IMG/VR virus record: IMGVR_UViG_3300023174_000057
Coordinates: 1-64,000 of that record
Origin: a virus
DNA length: 64,000 bases
Reading direction: 5' to 3' (one strand)
Shown here: piece by piece, positions 5,210 to 46,891 of the stretch
Layout: every line of letters starts with the position of its first letter
How positions within the stretch are numbered: position 1 is the stretch's first letter
Position numbers and translations under genes: made by a program
The notes under the pieces: generated by a model
Database searches by the model: none
The model's input: the letters and a program-made list of their open reading frames with translations, nothing else
Told to the model about the DNA's origin: nothing

Positions 5210-5424
5210 TGCGAACCTACCACATTCGCATGATGGACGACTACGGGTGGACCTTGGGGAAGGTATCCCCCGACGCGCCCAACAACAGCGCCGTTCTCAC
5301 CGTCGAGCGCGACGGCACCCGCTGGATCAGCCAAGTCAACGTGGACCGCCTGTCCATCGCAGACCTTTCCTCCCTCGCGGAGTTCTGCGCGCACGCGAAG
5401 CTCGACACTGGGCGCGGGACGTGA
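5209..5424 (+). CDS. Hypothetical protein
   Basis: 71 residues from ATG 5209; a GTG immediately upstream at 5206 is an alternative. The sequence MRTYHIRMMDDYGWTLG has short beta-strand character. No recognised domain. Coupled to both neighbours by overlapping stop and start codons. Confidence 0.6.
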   Translation: MRTYHIRMMDDYGWTLGKVSPDAPNNSAVLTVERDGTRWISQVNVDRLSIADLSSLAEFCAHAKLDTGRGT

Positions 5425-5654
5425 CCGTGGCCGTGACCGTAGAAGACCTCCGAACGCTGATCGGGGACGTGCTGTTCCAACGGGGTTATGGTTCGTGGTC
5501 CTTCGACCCGTACACGCGGGATCACGAACCCGGTTGGCACTACGTCCAAGTGGACGCCCGTTCCTACGACGTTCGTAGGCTGACGGTCAACGAGCGGGGT
5601 CGTACGGAAGCCGAAGCCTTGCGGGGTGTACTGGACTCCCTTGGAGTACCGTGA
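5421..5654 (+). CDS. Hypothetical protein
   Basis: 77 residues from a GTG overlapping the previous stop (GTGA). Mixed alpha/beta sequence, with VRRLTVNERGRTEAEALRGVLDSLGV as a probable C-terminal helix. Not recognised. Confidence 0.55.
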   Translation: MTVAVTVEDLRTLIGDVLFQRGYGSWSFDPYTRDHEPGWHYVQVDARSYDVRRLTVNERGRTEAEALRGVLDSLGVP

Positions 5655-5860
5655 ACCTAGATCAAGCCCGAGCTCTGACCGCACGGTTCCCCGCCTATTC
5701 CCCGCCCCCCGTAGCGGGCTCCCGGTAGCGGTGGTTTCTGCCGCTTCCCACCGCGCACCGTCCCCTGAAGCCGAGCGGCGACAGGGGGGTGGGCTGGGAG
5801 CCCGCCGCCGACAAGGCTGACCTCCGGGCGTTGATGGATCGGATGTTCCCGCCCCGCTAG
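5651..5860 (+). pseudogene. Small ORF interrupted by an in-frame amber codon
   Basis: From GTG 5651, overlapping the upstream stop, the frame reads VNLDQARALTARFPAYSPPP..., meets TAG at 5726-5728, and continues in the same frame as protein-like sequence to a second TAG at 5858. The tail reads WEPAADKADLRALMDRMF. Without the amber it would be a 69-residue protein. Other genes here end with TAG (17555, 22090, 34715), so genome-wide recoding is unlikely. A CCCCGCCTATTCCCC motif like the late promoters lies inside. Confidence 0.45.
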
Positions 5861-16163: not shown

Positions 16164-16173
16164 TCGTTGGGGG

Positions 16174-16193
16174 AGTTATACCCCGCACGGGAC
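16174..16193 (+). promoter_or_regulatory. Class 2 promoter with imperfect hairpin
   Basis: AGTTATACCCCGCACGGGAC immediately before ATG 16194; CCCCG/CGGG can pair as in the neighbouring copies. Confidence 0.45.
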
Positions 16194-17555
16194 ATGGACT
16201 TCCTCCGTTCCCGCGTCATCCGGCTCGCTCATCAGAACCCCGCTCTCCGTCCGCACCTCCTGCCTCTGCTTGCTTCGGGCGTAAGGGCTGTCATGGCAGG
16301 GAACCATGTCGAGCTCACAGAGGCCAACGGGATGGTGTACGTCACGGGGCCGTACCACCTCATGGCCGAGAACGTGAACCCGCGACTGAAGTCGCAGGGG
16401 TTCCGTTGGGACGGCGGCGCGCGTCGGTGGGAGCTCCCCGCCGCCAAGCTCACGCCCATCAAGCGCAAGAACTTGATGAAGATCATCGAGCCCCTCACGG
16501 CTGCGGGGGCGGCATCCACGGGCACGGATCTCCGTTCTCCCAAGCAGAAGATCGAAGACGAGATGCTGCGTCGGCGCGTGGAGGGGTGGTGCATCGACCT
16601 CCCCTACGACCTTGGGGAGAAGGCCAAGTCTCTGGGGGGTCTGTGGAACCCCACCACCCGGCTCTGGTGTATGCCCGACAAGGCGGCGCTGGATACCCTC
16701 CGCGAGGCCATCAACCAGACGCCCAAGATGGTGGCGCTGCGGGAGATCGCGCGGCGCAAGGCCGAGCGTCTGGGGGTGAACATCCCCTACGAGTACAAAG
16801 ACGAAGCCAAGTCTCTGGGGGGCCTCTGGGATCAGGACACCCGCACTTGGTATATGCCCGACACGTCCACCAAGCAGAAAGTGCTCGACAAGGTCGAGGC
16901 CGACCAAGAGCAAGCCCGACAGGTGGCGCTCCGTCACATGGAGCAGGAGCGGGAGCGGGTCGAAGCCGAGAGGAAGCGTCTGGGCCTCAAGACCTACTAC
17001 GAGCCGGGATACTCGCGTGGCGACCACCCGGCTGTCGGCCAGACCTTCAAGGATCGGAAGACGGGCGAGTTCATGGTAGTGACCGACGTGAAGTCGGTGT
17101 TCTATCGGGAGGACGGTCTGTCCTTCGGGCTTCCCGACGACACGGGATGGATGCACACGATCACGGCCAAGCCCGCCGAGGACGAGACGGCCATCCAAAG
17201 CATCAAGGACCGGGAGCAGCAGGAGCTCACCGTGGCCCAAGCCCGCACTCGTCGCAAGGAGCTCGCCAAGATGTTCCGCGACCGTGGGGACTTTCCGACG
17301 ACCGAAACGGACCTCCGACGTGAGGACCGTCTGGTGCTCTCTGGCCGGAACTCCGTCGCCTACGGCGGCGGGGATTGGTTCGTGATCACCCCGTCCCACA
17401 TCTGGTTCGTTCAGAACAACGGCGGGGACGGCGACAACTGGGGGTCGAACAACGTCGTCACGGGTGGCGCGGGCGCGATGGGCTGGAGGATGCCCCGCAC
17501 GGATGAACTGGTGGGCGAGCTCCAGCAACTCGACACCCTCATCGGTGAACGCTAG
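16194..17555 (+). CDS. Multi-repeat DUF5710-like protein with LRS...LLPLL segment
   Basis: 453 residues. Residues 4-26 are the shared segment. Three modules of the type AKSLGG.W...TR.WYMP (about residues 65-82, 139-156, 203-220) resemble the DUF5710 family found in conjugation-linked and phage proteins. A central coiled coil (ALRHMEQERERVEAERKR) separates these from a beta-rich C-terminal domain ending VGELQQLDTLIGER. The repeats look like ligand-binding pockets rather than an enzyme. Probably virion-associated. Confidence 0.65.
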   Translation: MDFLRSRVIRLAHQNPALRPHLLPLLASGVRAVMAGNHVELTEANGMVYVTGPYHLMAENVNPRLKSQGFRWDGGARRWELPAAKLTPIKRKNLMKIIEPLTAAGAASTGTDLRSPKQKIEDEMLRRRVEGWCIDLPYDLGEKAKSLGGLWNPTTRLWCMPDKAALDTLREAINQTPKMVALREIARRKAERLGVNIPYEYKDEAKSLGGLWDQDTRTWYMPDTSTKQKVLDKVEADQEQARQVALRHMEQERERVEAERKRLGLKTYYEPGYSRGDHPAVGQTFKDRKTGEFMVVTDVKSVFYREDGLSFGLPDDTGWMHTITAKPAEDETAIQSIKDREQQELTVAQARTRRKELAKMFRDRGDFPTTETDLRREDRLVLSGRNSVAYGGGDWFVITPSHIWFVQNNGGDGDNWGSNNVVTGGAGAMGWRMPRTDELVGELQQLDTLIGER

Positions 17556-17855: not shown

Positions 17856-18041
17856 ATGCCCGAGATCAAGTTCTCCACGGACAAAGCTGAACGCTGGCTG
17901 GACCGCATCGGCAAACGGCTGGAAGTGCTCTCCCCGGAGGAGAGGCTCCAGTACCAGTTACTCCGGGACACCGTGACCGAGGGGCACAAGCTCGACTCGC
18001 AGCAAGCCAAGGCCCTCCACGTCTTGGGAAAGAAGCTATGA
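17856..18041 (+). CDS. Small helical protein
   Basis: 61 residues, highly charged helical sequence (LDRIGKRLEVLSPEERLQYQ). It starts on the base after the previous stop and overlaps the SET gene by 4 nt. Possibly a partner of that protein. Confidence 0.6.
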   Translation: MPEIKFSTDKAERWLDRIGKRLEVLSPEERLQYQLLRDTVTEGHKLDSQQAKALHVLGKKL

Positions 18042-18526
18042 TCTGCCCCGACTGCGGTCTCAAGAGCCCCACACCCACCACGGATTGGCAAACCAAGGCA
18101 GCGTTCGTCTGCGGGGACTGCCTCAAGAAGGCCGTGCCCGAGCCTCCCGGGGGGTGGCCCATTCTCTCCCGCTGGATCAGCCGTGACCGTGGCCGTGGGG
18201 TGTTCGCCCGCGACGACATCGCGCGCGGGACGACGGTCGAGCGGTGCTGGGTGATGCCCCTGTCCGAGGAGGAGTCCCTGCAAACCCTGTCCATGCCCAT
18301 CACCAACCGCTACCTGTTCCCGTGGGTGAACGGGAAGCGGTGCATCATTTCTGGCAGTGGGCTCCTCTACAACTTCGACCGCTCTGACACCACGGGGCGC
18401 GAGCCCAACATTCTGTGTGTGCTGCGGGAAGGGCTCTCAGCCATCGAGTTCCGCGCCATGCGGAACATCAAGTCGGGCGAGGAGCTCACTTGGGACTACG
18501 CCCACGCCGTCACCCGCCCTGCGTGA
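18038..18526 (+). CDS. SET-domain protein with N-terminal zinc ribbon
   Basis: 162 residues. Residues 3-30 hold CPDC...CGDC, a zinc ribbon. A compact SET domain follows: GRGVFARDDIARGTTVE near residue 51, a YLFPW region, GSGLLYNFDR, then PNILC, and finally IKSGEELTWDYA, the conserved ELTWDY end. SET domains transfer methyl groups from S-adenosylmethionine to lysines. The usual NHSC is represented by YNFDR...PN, which some viral and eukaryote-like SET proteins share. Substrate unknown; a host or phage DNA-binding protein is plausible. Coupled to a small helical protein upstream. Confidence 0.8.
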   Translation: MICPDCGLKSPTPTTDWQTKAAFVCGDCLKKAVPEPPGGWPILSRWISRDRGRGVFARDDIARGTTVERCWVMPLSEEESLQTLSMPITNRYLFPWVNGKRCIISGSGLLYNFDRSDTTGREPNILCVLREGLSAIEFRAMRNIKSGEELTWDYAHAVTRPA

Positions 18527-19040: not shown

Positions 19041-19056
19041 CTACCCCCGACCGTTG

Positions 19057-19080
19057 ATTGCCTTATACCCCGTGCGGGGC
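19057..19080 (+). promoter_or_regulatory. Class 2 promoter with CCCCG-TG-CGGGG hairpin
   Basis: GCCTTATACC then the hairpin adjoining ATG 19081. Confidence 0.5.
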
Positions 19081-20001
19081 ATGAGCACCCTGCGATCCTC
19101 CCTCATTCGGCTGGCTCACCAGCAGCCGCATCTCCGTCCGCAGCTTCTCCCTCTCCTCAAGGCGGCGCGCGTCACCCAAGAACTCATCCGGGTGAAGTAC
19201 GTCAACCTTGGGGACTTCGGCGGGACCGACCCCGTGGAAGACTCTTGGGTGCTGGATGTCGCTGGGCCGACGTTCGACTACCGTGACGAGCTCAAGCGTC
19301 TGGGCTTCCGTTGGAACTCAGCCAGCAAGGTTTGGAGCATCGACGCGACGCTGTACAAGTACGGCGGGCGGCGCAACGCGGAGTTCTACAAGAACCGCAA
19401 GCTCCAAGAAGCTGCCTTCCCGGTGGTGCAAACCCTCGCCAAGAAGCACAACGAGGCGGCAGAGGCGTTCAACCGTGGGGTCCGTCCCGGTGGTGGCGGT
19501 GGTGGCGGTGACGACCGCGAGGTCGTCGAGCACTGGCAGCGGCTTGAACGGATGCAGCCCAAGCTGGAGGCGGCGGGGCTCAAGGTCGAGCACACCTACC
19601 CCGGTCGCTACGACGTGACCGAGGGCACAGTGACCGTGAGCGGCAACACCTACCCGTTCGTCGCGGTCATGAAGAAGTACGGGTGGAAGTGGAACCCGTC
19701 GAAGAAGGCGTGGCAGATCCCGGTTCCCGAGTACCACGCGATCCAAGACAAGTGGATGAGTGACATCGTGCGGGAGCTCCCGAGTCGTCCCGAGCCCGTG
19801 GTGTCCGCCGTGTTCTCGGAGATGAGCCAGCGTGAGCTCGCGGACTGGGTGGGCAGTCACTACGGCTACGAAGACCTCACGCAAGACGGCGAGCAGGACG
19901 CGAAGGTGGGGATCGCCCGCTACATGGCCTACCTCAAGGGCTTGAGCCCGAAGGACCAGCAGAGCTTCTACGAGAAGCAAAACCGCCTCTACGGGCGCTG
20001 A
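19081..20001 (+). CDS. DUF5710-like protein with N-terminal LRS...LLPLLK segment
   Basis: 306 residues. Residues 4-27 are the shared segment. Two modules LKRLGFRWNSASKVWSI and MKKYGWKWNPSKKAWQIP resemble those of the 16194 protein, so the two are distant paralogues. A Gly-run linker (GGGGGGG) separates them. The C-terminal part is acidic and helical. Probably virion-associated; function unknown. Confidence 0.65.
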   Translation: MSTLRSSLIRLAHQQPHLRPQLLPLLKAARVTQELIRVKYVNLGDFGGTDPVEDSWVLDVAGPTFDYRDELKRLGFRWNSASKVWSIDATLYKYGGRRNAEFYKNRKLQEAAFPVVQTLAKKHNEAAEAFNRGVRPGGGGGGGDDREVVEHWQRLERMQPKLEAAGLKVEHTYPGRYDVTEGTVTVSGNTYPFVAVMKKYGWKWNPSKKAWQIPVPEYHAIQDKWMSDIVRELPSRPEPVVSAVFSEMSQRELADWVGSHYGYEDLTQDGEQDAKVGIARYMAYLKGLSPKDQQSFYEKQNRLYGR

Positions 20002-21145: not shown

Positions 21146-22090
21146 ATGAATATCCTGCTGCAACTTCTCGCCATCCTCCGCGCCCTTCAGTGGTCGCACC
21201 AGACCGCCCACTGGAAGGTCCGTGGCGAGCCGTTCTACGGCGACCACCTGCTCTTCCAGAAGCTCTACGAGGCCGTGGGCGAGGAGATCGACACGCTGGC
21301 CGAGAAGATCGTCGGGATCTACGGCCCGGGCGCGATCACGAACCTGTCGGTGATCTCAGACACGCACCAGTTCATCGCGAACCACGCGGCGACGGGGGCG
21401 GGTGACAGTTCGTACCAGTGCGCCCTCCAGATGGAGGAGCACCTCCAGCGGGCGCTCAAGCTCGCCTACGACGAGCTCAAGGCCAGCGGGGAGATGTCCC
21501 TCGGCCTCGACGACTTCCTCATGGCGACGGCGAACGCTCACGAGACGGCGCTGTACCTGCTCCGTCAGCGCAACCGCCCCAAGGCGGCGAGCGCGAAGAC
21601 CGCTGCCTACGGTGACGAGGGTCGCACGGCGGCGGACCGCCTCGCGGCAATCCAGCAGCCCAAGGGCTACAAGCCCGTGTACGAGGGGAACGCGATGGCC
21701 GTCCCGTTGACGTGGGGCACCTCGGGCAAGATGGTCCCCTACGACGTAGCCAAGTACATGGCACCGCTGTTCGACGCGGCGAAGGGTGGAGTGGCCTACG
21801 TCCTCGACCAGAACAAGGTGTTCACGGCGGCGGGCCTCGCTGCGGTCGAGAAGGCACTTGAACAACGCATCGCGGACGATTACGGGGAGCAGTACGCGAT
21901 GGACTCGGAGTACCTCCAAGGCAACGACACGCCCAACGCCGAGATCGCTCTGACCATCTCGGGCGAGCAGGCAGATATGGCTCGCAAGGTGAAGGTGAAG
22001 ATCACTCCGATCACCTCGCCTACGTCTGGCAAGGCTGGCCTCAAGGTGGTGTTCAACCCCACCCACGATCAGATCGAGGCGATCCGCTAG
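21146..22090 (+). CDS. Dps/ferritin-like N-terminal domain fused to unknown domain
   Basis: 314 residues. Residues 1-150 match the Dps family: HQTAHWKVRGEPFYGDHLLF with the His, Trp and Asp positions of the ferroxidase region, then YEAVGEEIDTLAEKI. Dps-like proteins bind DNA or oxidise and store iron. Residues 160-314 are a second, beta-rich domain that I do not recognise (LTISGEQADMARKVKVKITP). AAGGAA precedes the ATG. Its place among virion-type genes suggests a packaged or capsid-decorating protein. Confidence 0.7.
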   Translation: MNILLQLLAILRALQWSHQTAHWKVRGEPFYGDHLLFQKLYEAVGEEIDTLAEKIVGIYGPGAITNLSVISDTHQFIANHAATGAGDSSYQCALQMEEHLQRALKLAYDELKASGEMSLGLDDFLMATANAHETALYLLRQRNRPKAASAKTAAYGDEGRTAADRLAAIQQPKGYKPVYEGNAMAVPLTWGTSGKMVPYDVAKYMAPLFDAAKGGVAYVLDQNKVFTAAGLAAVEKALEQRIADDYGEQYAMDSEYLQGNDTPNAEIALTISGEQADMARKVKVKITPITSPTSGKAGLKVVFNPTHDQIEAIR

Positions 22091-22773
22091 CGCACCTTGG
22101 TCTTGTAGCCTCGCAGATCACCGATCTGCACCAAATACCCCCCGTTGTTCCGCTCCTTGTACTCCAGCCGGAACGGCTTCACGCCGGGGGGGAGCCCGTA
22201 TTTCTCAATGGCCTGACGGTGGAGCTCTGCCCAGAACGCCCATCCCCTGCGACTGCGCGGGTCGTGGAGGACCACGTTCTTGGCGGCGCGGGCGATCTGC
22301 CACCTGTAGTGCATGGCCGAGTTGTGGTAGTACTCCTTCACCGAGGGGGGTTCCTTTTGGCCCCACCCGCTGGTGGGGGCTTCCATCAGTCCCGCAGTGG
22401 CGACGACGGCTATCTCGACGTAGGGGTCGTTGGGTTGCAGGGGTTCGCGCTTGTACTTCCGGGCGAAGGTCTTGATGTACAGGGACGCCCGGTAGAGCTC
22501 CTTGGGGGACGCGCTCGCCCACACGAGGCACTCGCGCCCGCGCTTGGTGAGGGCTCCCTCACTGTCTAGGTGAGCCCCCATGATGTGGCTGAAGAGATTC
22601 CCCCGGTACAACTGGTCCCCACGGTAGATCCCGGGGAAGGGCGTGCCCGACAGGTAGTTGATGCCGTGGAAGAGCCAGAAGTCGTAGCCGACGTTCCGGT
22701 CATTGGCGGCGAACGCCTCGTAGGTTCGCATCGACCGCTGGAAGGGACCGCGCTTGTGGACTCCCTTGGGCAC
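22087..22773 (-). CDS. Hypothetical protein
   Basis: 228 residues from GTG 22773. TATAGT lies 6 nt upstream on the same strand (CCCGTATAGTCCTGC-GTG), which suggests a leaderless late-type transcript. Rich in aromatic and basic residues (YDFWLFHGINYLSGTPF). No recognised domain. It is convergent with the Dps-like gene, their ends overlapping by 4 nt. Confidence 0.6.
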   Translation of the reverse strand: MPKGVHKRGPFQRSMRTYEAFAANDRNVGYDFWLFHGINYLSGTPFPGIYRGDQLYRGNLFSHIMGAHLDSEGALTKRGRECLVWASASPKELYRASLYIKTFARKYKREPLQPNDPYVEIAVVATAGLMEAPTSGWGQKEPPSVKEYYHNSAMHYRWQIARAAKNVVLHDPRSRRGWAFWAELHRQAIEKYGLPPGVKPFRLEYKERNNGGYLVQIGDLRGYKTKVR

Positions 22774-23274: not shown

Positions 23275-23333
23275 GGGGGAGTCTTTCTCCGCGCCGACCC
23301 CTGTCACCTTCCCCCCACGGTAAAATCCCGGTG

Positions 23334-24875
23334 ATGAAGGTGCTCAGTGGCAAGCGCGCGTTGGTGACCCTCACGCGCGGTATGTCGGAACTGGCAAGGC
23401 TGGTGTCAGTCACCTATGGGCCGCATGGGTCCAAGGTGGGTGTCGCGAAGCAAGGAAGAGTGCTGGTGACGACCGATGGGTCGGCGTTGGCGCGTGAGAC
23501 TCGGTTCAAGGGTGACGAGAGACTTGGGGTGTCCTTGGTTCGGGCAGCGACCTCCGTGGTGGAAGGGGGAGCGGGGGACGGTACAAGCACGACGGTGCTG
23601 TTGGCAAATGCCCTCGTCCAAGCCGCTCTGGATCATCACACCCCCCGGACTTGGAACCCGAGGGCTCTCGTCCAAGAAGTGCGCTCGTACCTCCCCGCCG
23701 TCGAAAGTCTACTCACCGAGATCTCCCGGTCGCCCACCGAGACCATCCTCCACCGTGTCGCCCAGATGTCCTCCCACGGCGACGACATGGTGGTGGAGGC
23801 CGTGGTGCCAGCGGTCCTACGGGTGGGGGAGACGGGCACGGTGCTGGCGCAGCCCGGTGAGGGTGTGGGCATCGAGCAGGACTACCGAGACGGGCTGGTG
23901 CTCGACGTGGGTTGGGCGGCGCACTCGATGGGACGGGGTGACGGCACCGACCGGGTGTTCGACGGCCCGATGGTGGCCGTGGTGAACCGACCGCTGTCCT
24001 CGTTTGATGACGTGCGGAGCTTGATGGAGGAGGCGTCACAGTGGCCCGGGCGCGGGCTGGTGCTCTTCTGCCCGAAGATCGCCGGGGACGCCCTTGCCAC
24101 GTTGGTGATGAACGACGCGCAGGGGGTGCTCCCCTGCATCGCGGTGAGGTACCTCAACCCCTCCCTCTACGAGGTCCACGATTGGATGGAGGACGTGGCG
24201 ACGGTCACCAATGCCACGAATCTCGGTCTTGAAAGCGGTGACGACCACCGGGAGTTCCGAGCGGAGTGGTTGGGGAGCGCCCGCAAGATCACCGTGGGGC
24301 GGGATCGCACGGAGATTCTTTCGTACCCCGACGCGGGCGACCGTATCGGTGCGAGAGTTGAAGAACTCCTTCGTCGCGCGGCGGACACCACCTCCGACTT
24401 TGACCGGGACAGGTACAGGTCACGCGCAGCGGCGATGGACGGGGGTCTCTGCATCCTCAAGGTCGGCGGGCACACCACCCCGGAGGCAGTGGAGCGTCGC
24501 TCGCGCGTCGAGGACACCCTGCACGCTGTACGGGAAGCCCTCACGTCGGGGGTGGTGCCGGGAGCGGGGCGCGCTCTGCACTTCGCCGCGTCACAGCCTG
24601 AGCTCCAAGAAACGCTGGGGGGTCGAGTGCTCGCCCGTGCGCTGGAGGAGCCCTTGAGAGTCCTGTGCGACCGTGCGGGCACTTCGTTCAACACCCTCCC
24701 CGCGCTTCCCGACGACGACCCTTGGGTGGGGTGGTGCCCGGTGCGGGGGACGGTGACGGACTTCTGGGAGACCCCTGCGGTGATCGACCCCGTGGGAGTG
24801 GTGAAGAGTTCCCTCCGTGCGGCGATGTCCGTGGCGTGCGAGGTGCTGCTCACGGAAGTCGTCCTCGTCCGCTGA
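23334..24875 (+). CDS. Phage GroEL-like chaperonin
   Basis: 513 residues (GroEL has 548). Equatorial-domain ATP motifs are kept: TYGPHGSKV, TTDGSALARE (the catalytic-Asp region), GDGTST at about 81-86, SRVEDTLHAVREAL (GroEL Asp398 region), SGVVPGAGRAL and DPVGVVKSSLRAA. The apical region is strongly diverged and the GGM tail is absent. It should hydrolyse ATP and fold phage proteins, alone or with host GroES. TAAAAT lies 7 nt before ATG 23334, so the message may be leaderless. Confidence 0.85.
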   Translation: MKVLSGKRALVTLTRGMSELARLVSVTYGPHGSKVGVAKQGRVLVTTDGSALARETRFKGDERLGVSLVRAATSVVEGGAGDGTSTTVLLANALVQAALDHHTPRTWNPRALVQEVRSYLPAVESLLTEISRSPTETILHRVAQMSSHGDDMVVEAVVPAVLRVGETGTVLAQPGEGVGIEQDYRDGLVLDVGWAAHSMGRGDGTDRVFDGPMVAVVNRPLSSFDDVRSLMEEASQWPGRGLVLFCPKIAGDALATLVMNDAQGVLPCIAVRYLNPSLYEVHDWMEDVATVTNATNLGLESGDDHREFRAEWLGSARKITVGRDRTEILSYPDAGDRIGARVEELLRRAADTTSDFDRDRYRSRAAAMDGGLCILKVGGHTTPEAVERRSRVEDTLHAVREALTSGVVPGAGRALHFAASQPELQETLGGRVLARALEEPLRVLCDRAGTSFNTLPALPDDDPWVGWCPVRGTVTDFWETPAVIDPVGVVKSSLRAAMSVACEVLLTEVVLVR

Positions 24876-43850: not shown

Positions 43851-43906
43851 CGTCCACCCATCTTTTCCCCGACAACAACGCCTTGAGACGAGTGAGGAGT
43901 CAACTC

Positions 43907-46891
43907 ATGCTCGACGGGAGCCCTTTCCCCAATCTTCTGAGTGAGTTCGTGTACACGCGCACCTACGCGCGCTGGTTGGAGGACGCCAAGCGCCGCGAAT
44001 CGTGGCCCGAGACCGTCCTTCGTTACGTTGACTACATCTTCAAGGACAAGACCGTGCCGCACGGGCTCCGGGAGCGGGTCGAGAAGTTGATCCTCAACTT
44101 CGACGTGCTGGGTTCGATGCGGGCGTTGTGGTGCGCGGGTCCCGCGATGGACCGCGACAACGTGTGCGGGTACAACTGCTCGTCCCTGCCCGTGGACAAC
44201 CTCCGGGCGTTCAGCGAGGCCCTCTACATCCTCATGCAGGGCACGGGCGTGGGTTTCAGCGTCGAGCGCACGTTCACCGACAACCTCCCGGAGATCGCCC
44301 AACCCACGGGCGACACCATCGACTACATCATCCAAGACAGCACCGAAGGCTGGGCCGATGCCGTGTACTTCGGGATGGTGCAGTACCACCTCGGGCACCG
44401 GGTCAACTGGAACTACTCGCTCATCCGGGCGAAGGGTGAACGCCTCCACACCAAGGGTGGGCGGGCCAGCGGGCCGGAACCCCTCAAGCGAGTGCTGGAT
44501 TTCGCTGGAGAGACCATCGCCAACGCGGCGGGCCGTCGCCTGAAGCCCATCGAGGCGCACGACATCATGTGCATGATCGCGGAGATCGTGATGGTGGGCG
44601 GGTTCCGCCGCGCCAGCCTGATCTCCTTCAGCGACGTGGACGACGCGGAGATGCGCGACGCCAAGGACTGGTCGAAGGGGACGTTCCCGTCGATTCGGTA
44701 CATGGCGAACAACAGCGCCGTGTACTTCGACCGCCCCACGGAGGAGGTGTTCTGGCGCGAGTGGAACTCCCTCGCCAAGTCGGGCTCGGGCGAGCGGGGT
44801 TTCTACATCGTCAGTCCCCAGAACGTCGTCAAGCGCGGCGGCGAGTTTCGCAGTAATCCCTGCGTCACCGGGGACACCCGCGTGATGACCGACCGTGGCA
44901 TGGTCCAGATCCGTGACCTCGTCGGCAAGCCCTCCAAGCTCCTGCTCGACCAGCGGTTCGGCACGGACGGTTTCGGCCACACCACGGAAGCCGGGGCGTT
45001 CAAGACGGGCACGAAGGAAGTTTTCCGCCTCACCACGGAGGAGGGGTACACCCTGCGCCTCACGGCAGACCACCGTGTGATGACATCTCGCGGGTGGGTC
45101 GAGGCTCGTCACCTCACCCCCGCCGACCGGGTTCACGTCATCAACCACGGCGGTGGTTTCGGCACCAAGGGGGATGAGAACCTCGGGATGCTGGCCGGGT
45201 GGTTGTCGGGCGACGGCTGCGTGCTGGAGAACGGTGTCCCCCGCTTCTACTTCTACGGCGAGAAGCGTGAGCTCACGGCTCGCATGGCCGTGGCAGCGCA
45301 AGCCGTCACCGGGGGTGCGCTCCCGATGTTCCACACCTACCTCCCGATTGACCGTGACACCTTCCAGAGCGCGGACCTCCGCGAGTACCTCGGGGGGATG
45401 GCCAAGGGCCGGGTGCCGGAATTCGTCTGGCAGGGCACCAAGGACTGCCAGCGCGGTTACCTCTCGGCCCTGTTCAGTGCCGATGGGTCTGTGCAGGGAA
45501 CCCGTGAGAAGGGGGCCTCGGTGCGTCTGTCGTCGGTGGAGGCAGACCTCCTCCGCGACGTGCAGATGCTCCTGCTCAATTTCGGCGTAGCGTCGAAGCT
45601 CTACTTGAACCGACACGAGGCGGGCACCCGCCTACTGCCCGATGGCAATGGTGGTCTGGCTCCGTACCCGTGCCAAGCGGATCACGAGCTCGTGGTGAGC
45701 AAGGCCAACCTCGTCGCGTTCCACCGCAACGTAGGCTTCATGCTGGCCTCCAAGGAGGCCAAGCTGACTGCGCTCGTCGATGGGTTCGTTCGTGGCCCCT
45801 ACGCCGAAAAGTTCACCGCTCGGGTATCCACCATCGAGTCCTGCGGCGTCGAGGACGTGTACGACCTCACGGAGCCGACGACGCACTCGTTCGTGGCGAA
45901 CGGCGTGGTGGTCCACAACTGCGGCGAGATCCTCCTGCGCTTCAAGCGGGCGACCGACCCGTGGACGGGCGCGGGCGGCGGTGGGCAGTTCTGCAACCTC
46001 ACGGCGGCGGTGATGCGCCCGCACGACACCCTTGAAACGATGGCCGAGAAGGTTCACGCGGCGACGTGGCTGGGGGTGATTCAGTCCTCTTACACGCACT
46101 TCCCCTACCTTCGCCCCGCGTGGAAGGAGCTTTGCGACGAGGACCGCCTCGTGGGCGTGGACATCACGGGCCAGTGCGACAACCCGGCGCTCTCGGGCGA
46201 CGAGGAAGCGATGACGTACCTCAATGCCCTCGCACGTTCGACGGCGATCATCGCGGCGGCAACCCTCAAGGTTAACCGCCCTGCGGCGATCACCTGCGGC
46301 AAGCCCAGCGGGAACTCGTCGCAGTTCGTGGACTGCGCCAGCGGGTTTCACACCCGCTACGCGAAGCACTACTTCCGGCACGTTCGGATTTCTTCCAAGG
46401 ACCCGTTGTTCCACCTCGTGCGGGACCAAGGCGTACCCCTCTTCAAAGAGAACGGGCAGGAGCACTTGGAGGACGACAAGGTGGACGTGTGGGTGGCGCG
46501 GTTCCCGGTGAAGAGCCCCGATGGTGCGAAGCTCCGCGAGCACGAGCGGGCGCTTCAGCAGTTGGAGCGGTACCGCCAGATCATGCGGACGTGGTGCGGT
46601 GACAAGGGTCACAACCAGAGCGCGACCGTGTACGTCCGGGACGAAGAGTGGCAGGAAGTCGGTCAATGGCTCTGGGAGCACTTCGACGAGGTGACCGGGC
46701 TGTCGTTCCTGAACTACGACGGGGGCGCGTACCGCCTCGCCCCCTACGTCGAGATCACGGAGGAGGAGTACCTCGCCGCCCAGAAGGTGATGCCGCGCGT
46801 GCGGTTCGACCTGCTGCGTCGGTACGAAACGGGCGACATGGGCGACGGTGCCCGTGAAGCCGCGTGCGTGGGTGGGGCGTGCGACGTTTGA
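43907..46891 (+). CDS. nrdJ: Class II (B12-dependent) ribonucleotide reductase with intein
   Basis: 994 residues, about 641 after intein removal. DNVCGYNCSSLPVDNL, ILMQGTGVGFSVE and NPC-GEILLRF are signatures of the monomeric adenosylcobalamin-dependent ribonucleoside triphosphate reductase; CVGGACDV at the end is the redox Cys pair. It converts ribonucleotides to deoxyribonucleotides for phage DNA synthesis. An intein occupies residues 319-671, placed just before the catalytic Cys, so the unspliced protein is inactive. AGGAG lies 8 nt before ATG 43907. Confidence 0.9.
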   Translation: MLDGSPFPNLLSEFVYTRTYARWLEDAKRRESWPETVLRYVDYIFKDKTVPHGLRERVEKLILNFDVLGSMRALWCAGPAMDRDNVCGYNCSSLPVDNLRAFSEALYILMQGTGVGFSVERTFTDNLPEIAQPTGDTIDYIIQDSTEGWADAVYFGMVQYHLGHRVNWNYSLIRAKGERLHTKGGRASGPEPLKRVLDFAGETIANAAGRRLKPIEAHDIMCMIAEIVMVGGFRRASLISFSDVDDAEMRDAKDWSKGTFPSIRYMANNSAVYFDRPTEEVFWREWNSLAKSGSGERGFYIVSPQNVVKRGGEFRSNPCVTGDTRVMTDRGMVQIRDLVGKPSKLLLDQRFGTDGFGHTTEAGAFKTGTKEVFRLTTEEGYTLRLTADHRVMTSRGWVEARHLTPADRVHVINHGGGFGTKGDENLGMLAGWLSGDGCVLENGVPRFYFYGEKRELTARMAVAAQAVTGGALPMFHTYLPIDRDTFQSADLREYLGGMAKGRVPEFVWQGTKDCQRGYLSALFSADGSVQGTREKGASVRLSSVEADLLRDVQMLLLNFGVASKLYLNRHEAGTRLLPDGNGGLAPYPCQADHELVVSKANLVAFHRNVGFMLASKEAKLTALVDGFVRGPYAEKFTARVSTIESCGVEDVYDLTEPTTHSFVANGVVVHNCGEILLRFKRATDPWTGAGGGGQFCNLTAAVMRPHDTLETMAEKVHAATWLGVIQSSYTHFPYLRPAWKELCDEDRLVGVDITGQCDNPALSGDEEAMTYLNALARSTAIIAAATLKVNRPAAITCGKPSGNSSQFVDCASGFHTRYAKHYFRHVRISSKDPLFHLVRDQGVPLFKENGQEHLEDDKVDVWVARFPVKSPDGAKLREHERALQQLERYRQIMRTWCGDKGHNQSATVYVRDEEWQEVGQWLWEHFDEVTGLSFLNYDGGAYRLAPYVEITEEEYLAAQKVMPRVRFDLLRRYETGDMGDGAREAACVGGACDV
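44861..45919 (+). mobile_element. Intein with LAGLIDADG homing endonuclease
   Basis: 353 residues, in frame. Splicing blocks: Cys1 in CVTGDTRVM (block A), TADHRVMTSRGW (block B), and the C-terminal VYDLTEPTTHSFVANGVVVHN ending His-Asn before Cys+1. Two dodecapeptide motifs, LAGWLSGDG and LSALFSADG, each keep the acidic residue, so the endonuclease looks active. Confidence 0.9.

Follow-up and report, generated by a model that had tools for sequence, protein, structure and literature searches.

A gene for a small SET domain protein with a zinc-ribbon-like N-terminus was found in the window, the whole 64,000-nucleotide stretch of DNA that was analysed. The virus record from which the window was taken comprised 166,764 bases and held the gene in a single copy. 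The encoded protein has a SET fold whose core residues are intact and is conserved under purifying selection, and its gene lies in a conserved neighbourhood. Judged from the sequences and the structural model, the protein may well be a phage lysine methyltransferase that acts on proteins, depends on AdoMet and represents a form of the small single-domain prokaryotic SETs which diverged in one huge-phage lineage. The gene and its two parts were located as follows:

18038..18526, plus strand: zinc-ribbon SET protein, 162 amino acids, ATG start (open reading frame, Pfam and model)
18044..18121, plus strand: N-terminal zinc-ribbon-like part, Cys3-Cys6 ... Cys25-Cys28 (four Cys invariant in 7/7 homologues)
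18191..18499, plus strand: SET domain, residues 52-154 (PF00856 and fold match to Set7)

The Pfam family SET (PF00856) matched residues 52-154 with an E value of 2.8e-10 and a score of 41 bits, the cut-off being 22.4. All seven members of the family were over this cut-off, as were all 12 further virus records searched, which had been picked for already holding SET hits and of which six belong to the phage SET family. Residues 1-34 comprised two CxxC pairs, Cys3/Cys6 and Cys25/Cys28. The four invariant cysteines make it reasonable to read the N-terminus as a zinc ribbon, but known zinc-ribbon families stayed below their cut-offs on this protein (DUF4428 with 15.3 bits vs 27.8 and YnfU with 14.7 vs 36).

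The fold was modelled from 73 alignment rows with a pLDDT of 90.8 and a pTM of 0.85. When the alignment was restricted to the seven phage rows, the pLDDT was 38.3, too low to predict the fold. The top Foldseek match in the PDB was Schizosaccharomyces pombe Set7 (5h6z; E 5.9e-9), and VIA-align superposed the model on Set7 with a Z of 14.8 and an rmsd of 2.2 A over 121 residues. Based on this confident model and the structural match to Set7, the predicted SET fold is secure. The ribbon, in contrast, is predicted from the seven sequences and a block-mean pLDDT of 81-86 over residues 1-30. The first-pass annotation, made from the letters of the DNA, had described a zinc ribbon plus SET domain in a phage. 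This description was confirmed by PF00856 over its cut-off, the SET fold, the four cysteines in 7/7 homologues and a relative in the huge phage LR745208.1.

The family comprised seven distinct viral records, namely that of the window and six others found in scans of IMG/VR. Identity to the window protein was 85% for L002, 77% for L003, 64% for L014, 61% for L004 and L005 and 58% for L015, so that homologues covered a range of about 57-85% over the full length. The phage collection of 50,697 records contained one match, the 485-kb uncultured huge phage LR745208.1, with 63.5% identity. This match (L007) and the 485,040-base contig L014 gave the same alignment statistics and were counted as a single phage. 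When 84,980 bacterial and archaeal species genomes of GTDB were scanned with conserved peptides of the family, 22 pattern matches were obtained and none was confirmed as a relative. Where dS was not saturated (17 of 21 pairs), dN/dS ratios were 0.045-0.43; several dS values were high and the ratios are rough. Being well below 1, they indicate that purifying selection is acting on the phage SET family. Full-length homologues with 57-84% identity, the low dN/dS of 0.045-0.43 and the confident SET fold confirm that the open reading frame is a real gene and exclude chance.

A tree was calculated from 97 rows, comprising the seven phage SETs, 80 bacterial and archaeal SETs and 10 other viral SETs; L006, L029 and L030 were omitted, and long rows except L025 were cut to the last 150 residues. 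The seven phage SETs formed one clade (100/100) on a stem branch of 1.74 changes per column. Methanosarcina SETs were placed inside the tree of this SET type. A placement of the phage clade beside L106 (82/80) was set aside, as the tool flags a possible long-branch join. The phage SETs are a branch separate from the prokaryotic single-domain Asn-His-Ser type but may work like it.

Three motifs of the active site were recognised in the SET domain:

18191..18208, plus strand: GRGVFA, GxG cofactor motif, residues 52-57 (G52 and G54 in 7/7 phage members, each in 64/66 others)
18368..18379, plus strand: YNFD at residues 111-114, a variant Tyr-Asn-His-Ser motif with a 6-residue insertion between it and Pro-Asn (alignment)
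18479..18499, plus strand: EELTWDY with the catalytic-type Tyr154, residues 148-154 (Tyr154 in 7/7 and 66/66)

The motifs were compared with 66 SETs in alignment A6, which takes 60 of the 80 bacterial and archaeal loci and 6 other viral SETs and omits L025, L006 and also L029 and L030, both identical in protein to L028. Gly52, Gly54, Glu68, Tyr92, Gly106, Asn112, Pro123, Asn124, Glu148, Glu149 and Tyr154 were kept in all seven phage members. The family thus carries the GxG, the Asn of Asn-His and the catalytic-type Tyr of the SET superfamily (7/7). It departs from the prokaryotic single-domain SETs, which have Tyr-Asn-His-Ser and a short loop to Pro-Asn, in that all seven members read Asn-Phe/Met/Leu-Asp and have an insertion. 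Residue 113 was Phe in five members, Met in one and Leu in one, the latter being the homologue of the 485-kb phage, whereas it was His in 65/66 comparison SETs, a count that is biased because one pattern of the cellular-SET scan itself demands Tyr-Asn-His-Ser. As a check on this bias, Asn-His was found in 52/52 of those among the 80 cellular loci that were reached without a His-containing pattern; a script gave it for 51, and L052, which the script had missed, reads VYNHS. Residue 114 was Asp in all seven phage members and Ser or Ala in the comparison SETs. The insertion of six residues after the YNFD-type motif was seen against both Set7 and the minimal viral enzyme vSET. The conserved elements had been taken as a sign of activity in the first-pass annotation. 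All motifs quoted there were present and most elements stood, but LYNFDR departs from the Asn-His signature.

The altered corner bears on a rather unlikely alternative, a SET-fold protein devoid of methyltransferase activity that, along with its zinc ribbon and small partner, serves as a scaffold for binding proteins or peptides. The change from Asn-His to Asn-Phe/Met/Leu with the 6-residue insertion in 7/7 members is consistent with such a scaffold, and so is the long stem branch. The His of the motif is presumably His324 in SUV39H1. In the accessible part of one study, H324L of SUV39H1 was used as a catalytically inactive mutant (PMC5608954), which also points towards a scaffold. All other core residues, including Tyr154, Asn112 and the GxG, were invariant, however, and an enzyme that had lost its function would be expected to lose the catalytic Tyr. 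PRDM9, which we take to be active without the His of this motif, likewise argues against a scaffold. Catalysis by the phage SET protein is likely, yet not assured, since Asn-His is altered in 7/7 members and the His-to-Leu exchange at the presumed equivalent position inactivates SUV39H1.

In the methyltransferase that we favour, the core of GxG, Asn112 and Pro-Asn would bind AdoMet, and Tyr154 would help to transfer the methyl group to a lysine. The zinc ribbon at the N-terminus may dock the substrate or complete the lysine channel, replacing the C-terminal extension of many bacterial SETs. The edge of the cofactor and substrate site would be reshaped by the insertion and by residue 113, which is hydrophobic, while catalysis is kept. 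The natural change from His to Phe, Met or Leu raises the question of whether the position used for 'dead' SET enzymes is truly required.

The SET gene was embedded in a conserved block with the following neighbours:

17856..18041, plus strand: 61-amino-acid protein, helix-rich by reading of the sequence, ATGA overlap with the SET start (open reading frames; in 4/7 records)
21146..22090, plus strand: Dps-like mini-ferritin with C-terminal extension (PHROG 3636, E 1.3e-12; neighbour in 7/7)
22087..22773, minus strand: conserved gene of unknown family between the Dps-like and chaperonin genes (7/7 records)
23331..24875, plus strand: GroEL-like chaperonin (PF00118, E 2e-32; PHROG 5725, E 5.3e-70)

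The order SET, Dps-like, minus-strand gene and GroEL-like was kept in 7/7 records. The distance between the SET and Dps-like genes was 42 bp in L014 and 23 bp in L015. These two genes were separated in the window, L002, L003 and L004 by further genes, many of them tagged at the N-terminus. The block with the SET, Dps-like and chaperonin genes was located upstream of peptidase and amidase genes. Translation of a small helical protein together with the SET protein, as proposed earlier, agrees with the 61-amino-acid reading frame, whose stop overlapped the SET start as ATGA in three of the four records having the gene. When this protein was looked for in other contexts, it was found only in three SET-bearing relatives.

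The Dps-like protein scored below the curated family cut-offs, with E 2.3e-7 and 31 bits vs 114 for NCBIfam Dps and 17 vs 24.5 for Pfam Ferritin, and is therefore named 'Dps-like'. The ferroxidase-type residues His22, His34, Asp49 and Glu53, which we assume to map to the Dps ferroxidase site, were present in 7/7 SET-bearing and 74/74 other sequences. The protein was common in viral contigs, with 146 confirmed and 80 kept. Any SET was nearby in only 7 of these 80 loci, and six of the seven belonged to the phage SET family. The Dps-like protein thus works without a SET protein, and the SET gene was probably added later to an older Dps-like/chaperonin block, as most Dps-like loci lack it. In huge phages, the Dps-like domain was joined to varying C-terminal extensions, with open frames of up to 591 amino acids elsewhere. 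Other genes were observed in these records. A VWA/CobT-like protein was encoded at 183-1214 of the window, 7882-9972 of L004 and 7262-9931 of L015 (by Pfam for the first two), the copies of L004 and L015 being directly before the SET gene. A B12-type ribonucleotide reductase at 43883-46891 of the window was split by an intein that carries a LAGLIDADG endonuclease.

Candidate substrates were searched among the phage proteins. The Dps-like protein was rejected as a substrate by conserved lysine, for it contained no lysine specific to SET-bearing phages; Lys54 was present in 7/7 SET-bearing phages but also in 69/74 others. A phage-encoded HU was rejected as well, with HU-family genes in only 1/7 SET-bearing records. 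The latter count means that an HU-like substrate would mostly be the host's. It fits a methyltransferase that is active on host targets such as nucleoid proteins, RNA polymerase or translation factors and would thereby redirect or disarm the cell, and according to the part of PMC3980110 available, chromatin proteins are among the possible substrates of bacterial and archaeal SETs. We nevertheless regard a host target as unlikely. The gene is part of the conserved phage block with the Dps-like and chaperonin genes and with peptidase and amidase genes downstream, no takeover cluster is obvious, and none of five proteins matched the anti-phage defence proteins of PADLOC.

A tag of about 28 residues, LRSKVIRLAHQNPALRPHLLPLLK (pattern LRSxVIRLAH..P.LRPHLLPLLK), was shared by proteins that otherwise differ, in most cases at the N-terminus or close to it. 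Its positions in the window were 6466, 7185, 15801, 16194, 19081, 20018, 20849, 37355 and 62903, and further copies were present in the record. Altogether, the window's record held 15 copies and each of the six relatives 7-12. Of 50,697 phage records, one contained the tag, as did some tens of viral contigs. The tag may be a leader that is cleaved off or that serves head targeting or packaging. The tagged proteins at 16167-17555 and 19054-20001, which flank the SET gene, contained DUF5710-like repeats, over the cut-off only in the first. Modification of this common tag by the SET protein would be in keeping with its presence in 7/7 SET-bearing records with 7-15 Lys-bearing copies each, and with tagged genes flanking the SET gene. 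A link between SET protein and tag gained no support and such a role is very improbable, as 17/18 further tag-bearing records of up to 497 kb, a hand-picked subset of mostly large contigs, held no SET. The earlier proposal that the host nucleoid, RNA polymerase or virion proteins are targets gained no support from the HU count, the Dps-like lysines or the distribution of the tag.

For the favoured phage methyltransferase, a phage protein of the same DNA-protection, folding and virion block, such as the Dps-like protein, the chaperonin or virion proteins, is tentatively put forward as the most likely substrate. Another DNA-associated protein is a similarly tentative alternative. In vitro, the archaeal Go1-SET transfers methyl groups to MC1-alpha, a DNA-associated protein, as stated in the accessible portion of PMC3980110. 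Owing to this precedent, a DNA-associated or neighbouring phage protein is a plausible substrate, though no more than that. We consider it quite improbable that the sequences define a phage-only SET class, with an Asn-Phe corner and its own ribbon, that lysine-methylates a genome- or virion-handling protein (Dps-like, chaperonin client or packaged). If true, this would be a chromatin-like marking step within huge-phage infection.

SET domains had been called uncommon in phages, and their rarity was upheld; they are already in print and in databases. The available part of a Stenotrophomonas phage paper lists ORF62 of phage Ps15 as a SET domain protein (PMC9025141). In BFVD, four entries of uncultured Caudovirales phage were named 'SET domain' proteins. 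These SET-type proteins of tailed phages are likened to the present one by annotation, not by residues. GR11A_00061 of Vibrio phage vB_VcorM_GR11A, annotated as hypothetical, was SET-like with 33.6% identity to a bacterial SET. Our literature searches returned no paper centred on a phage SET protein, with a passing mention in what was accessible of PMC9025141, and the main text of Al-Shayeb 2020 (PMC7162821) made no mention of SET domain, methyltransferase, histone or chaperonin. As far as these searches show, phage protein-lysine methylation is little explored, and a SET gene conserved throughout a clade in a fixed huge-phage neighbourhood is a testable case.

The phage protein has the SET core in common with the prokaryotic single-domain SETs of bacteria and methanogens. 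Identity of the window protein to the 66 comparison rows (60 cellular, 6 viral) was 23-36%. Among the 80 cellular single-domain loci, with the scan bias described above, His followed Asn in 80/80 and a CxxC preceded the SET domain in 0/80, both unlike the phage family. Many cellular SETs end in a WF-containing C-terminal extension, which the phage family lacks. S. pombe Set7 (5h6z) was the best PDB match by sequence too (E 4.8e-9) but has Asn-His-Asp and no insertion, and its alignment begins at model residue 31, so that no counterpart of the ribbon was aligned. PBCV-1 vSET (3kma), a minimal viral SET domain from an algal virus, matched the model with a Z of 11.9 over 103 residues; it has an Asn-His-Ser motif, and its alignment begins at residue 39 with no ribbon. 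The phage SETs L119, L126 and L127 have the Asn-His motif and were placed outside the phage ribbon-SET clade. L119, at 5335-5805 of the record of L015, is a second, distinct SET of that record and shared 43% identity with a SET of the 636-kb phage LR756504.1. Compared with these proteins, the phage-only branch, which combines a ribbon with a changed Asn-His corner and a constant neighbourhood, seems to be new.
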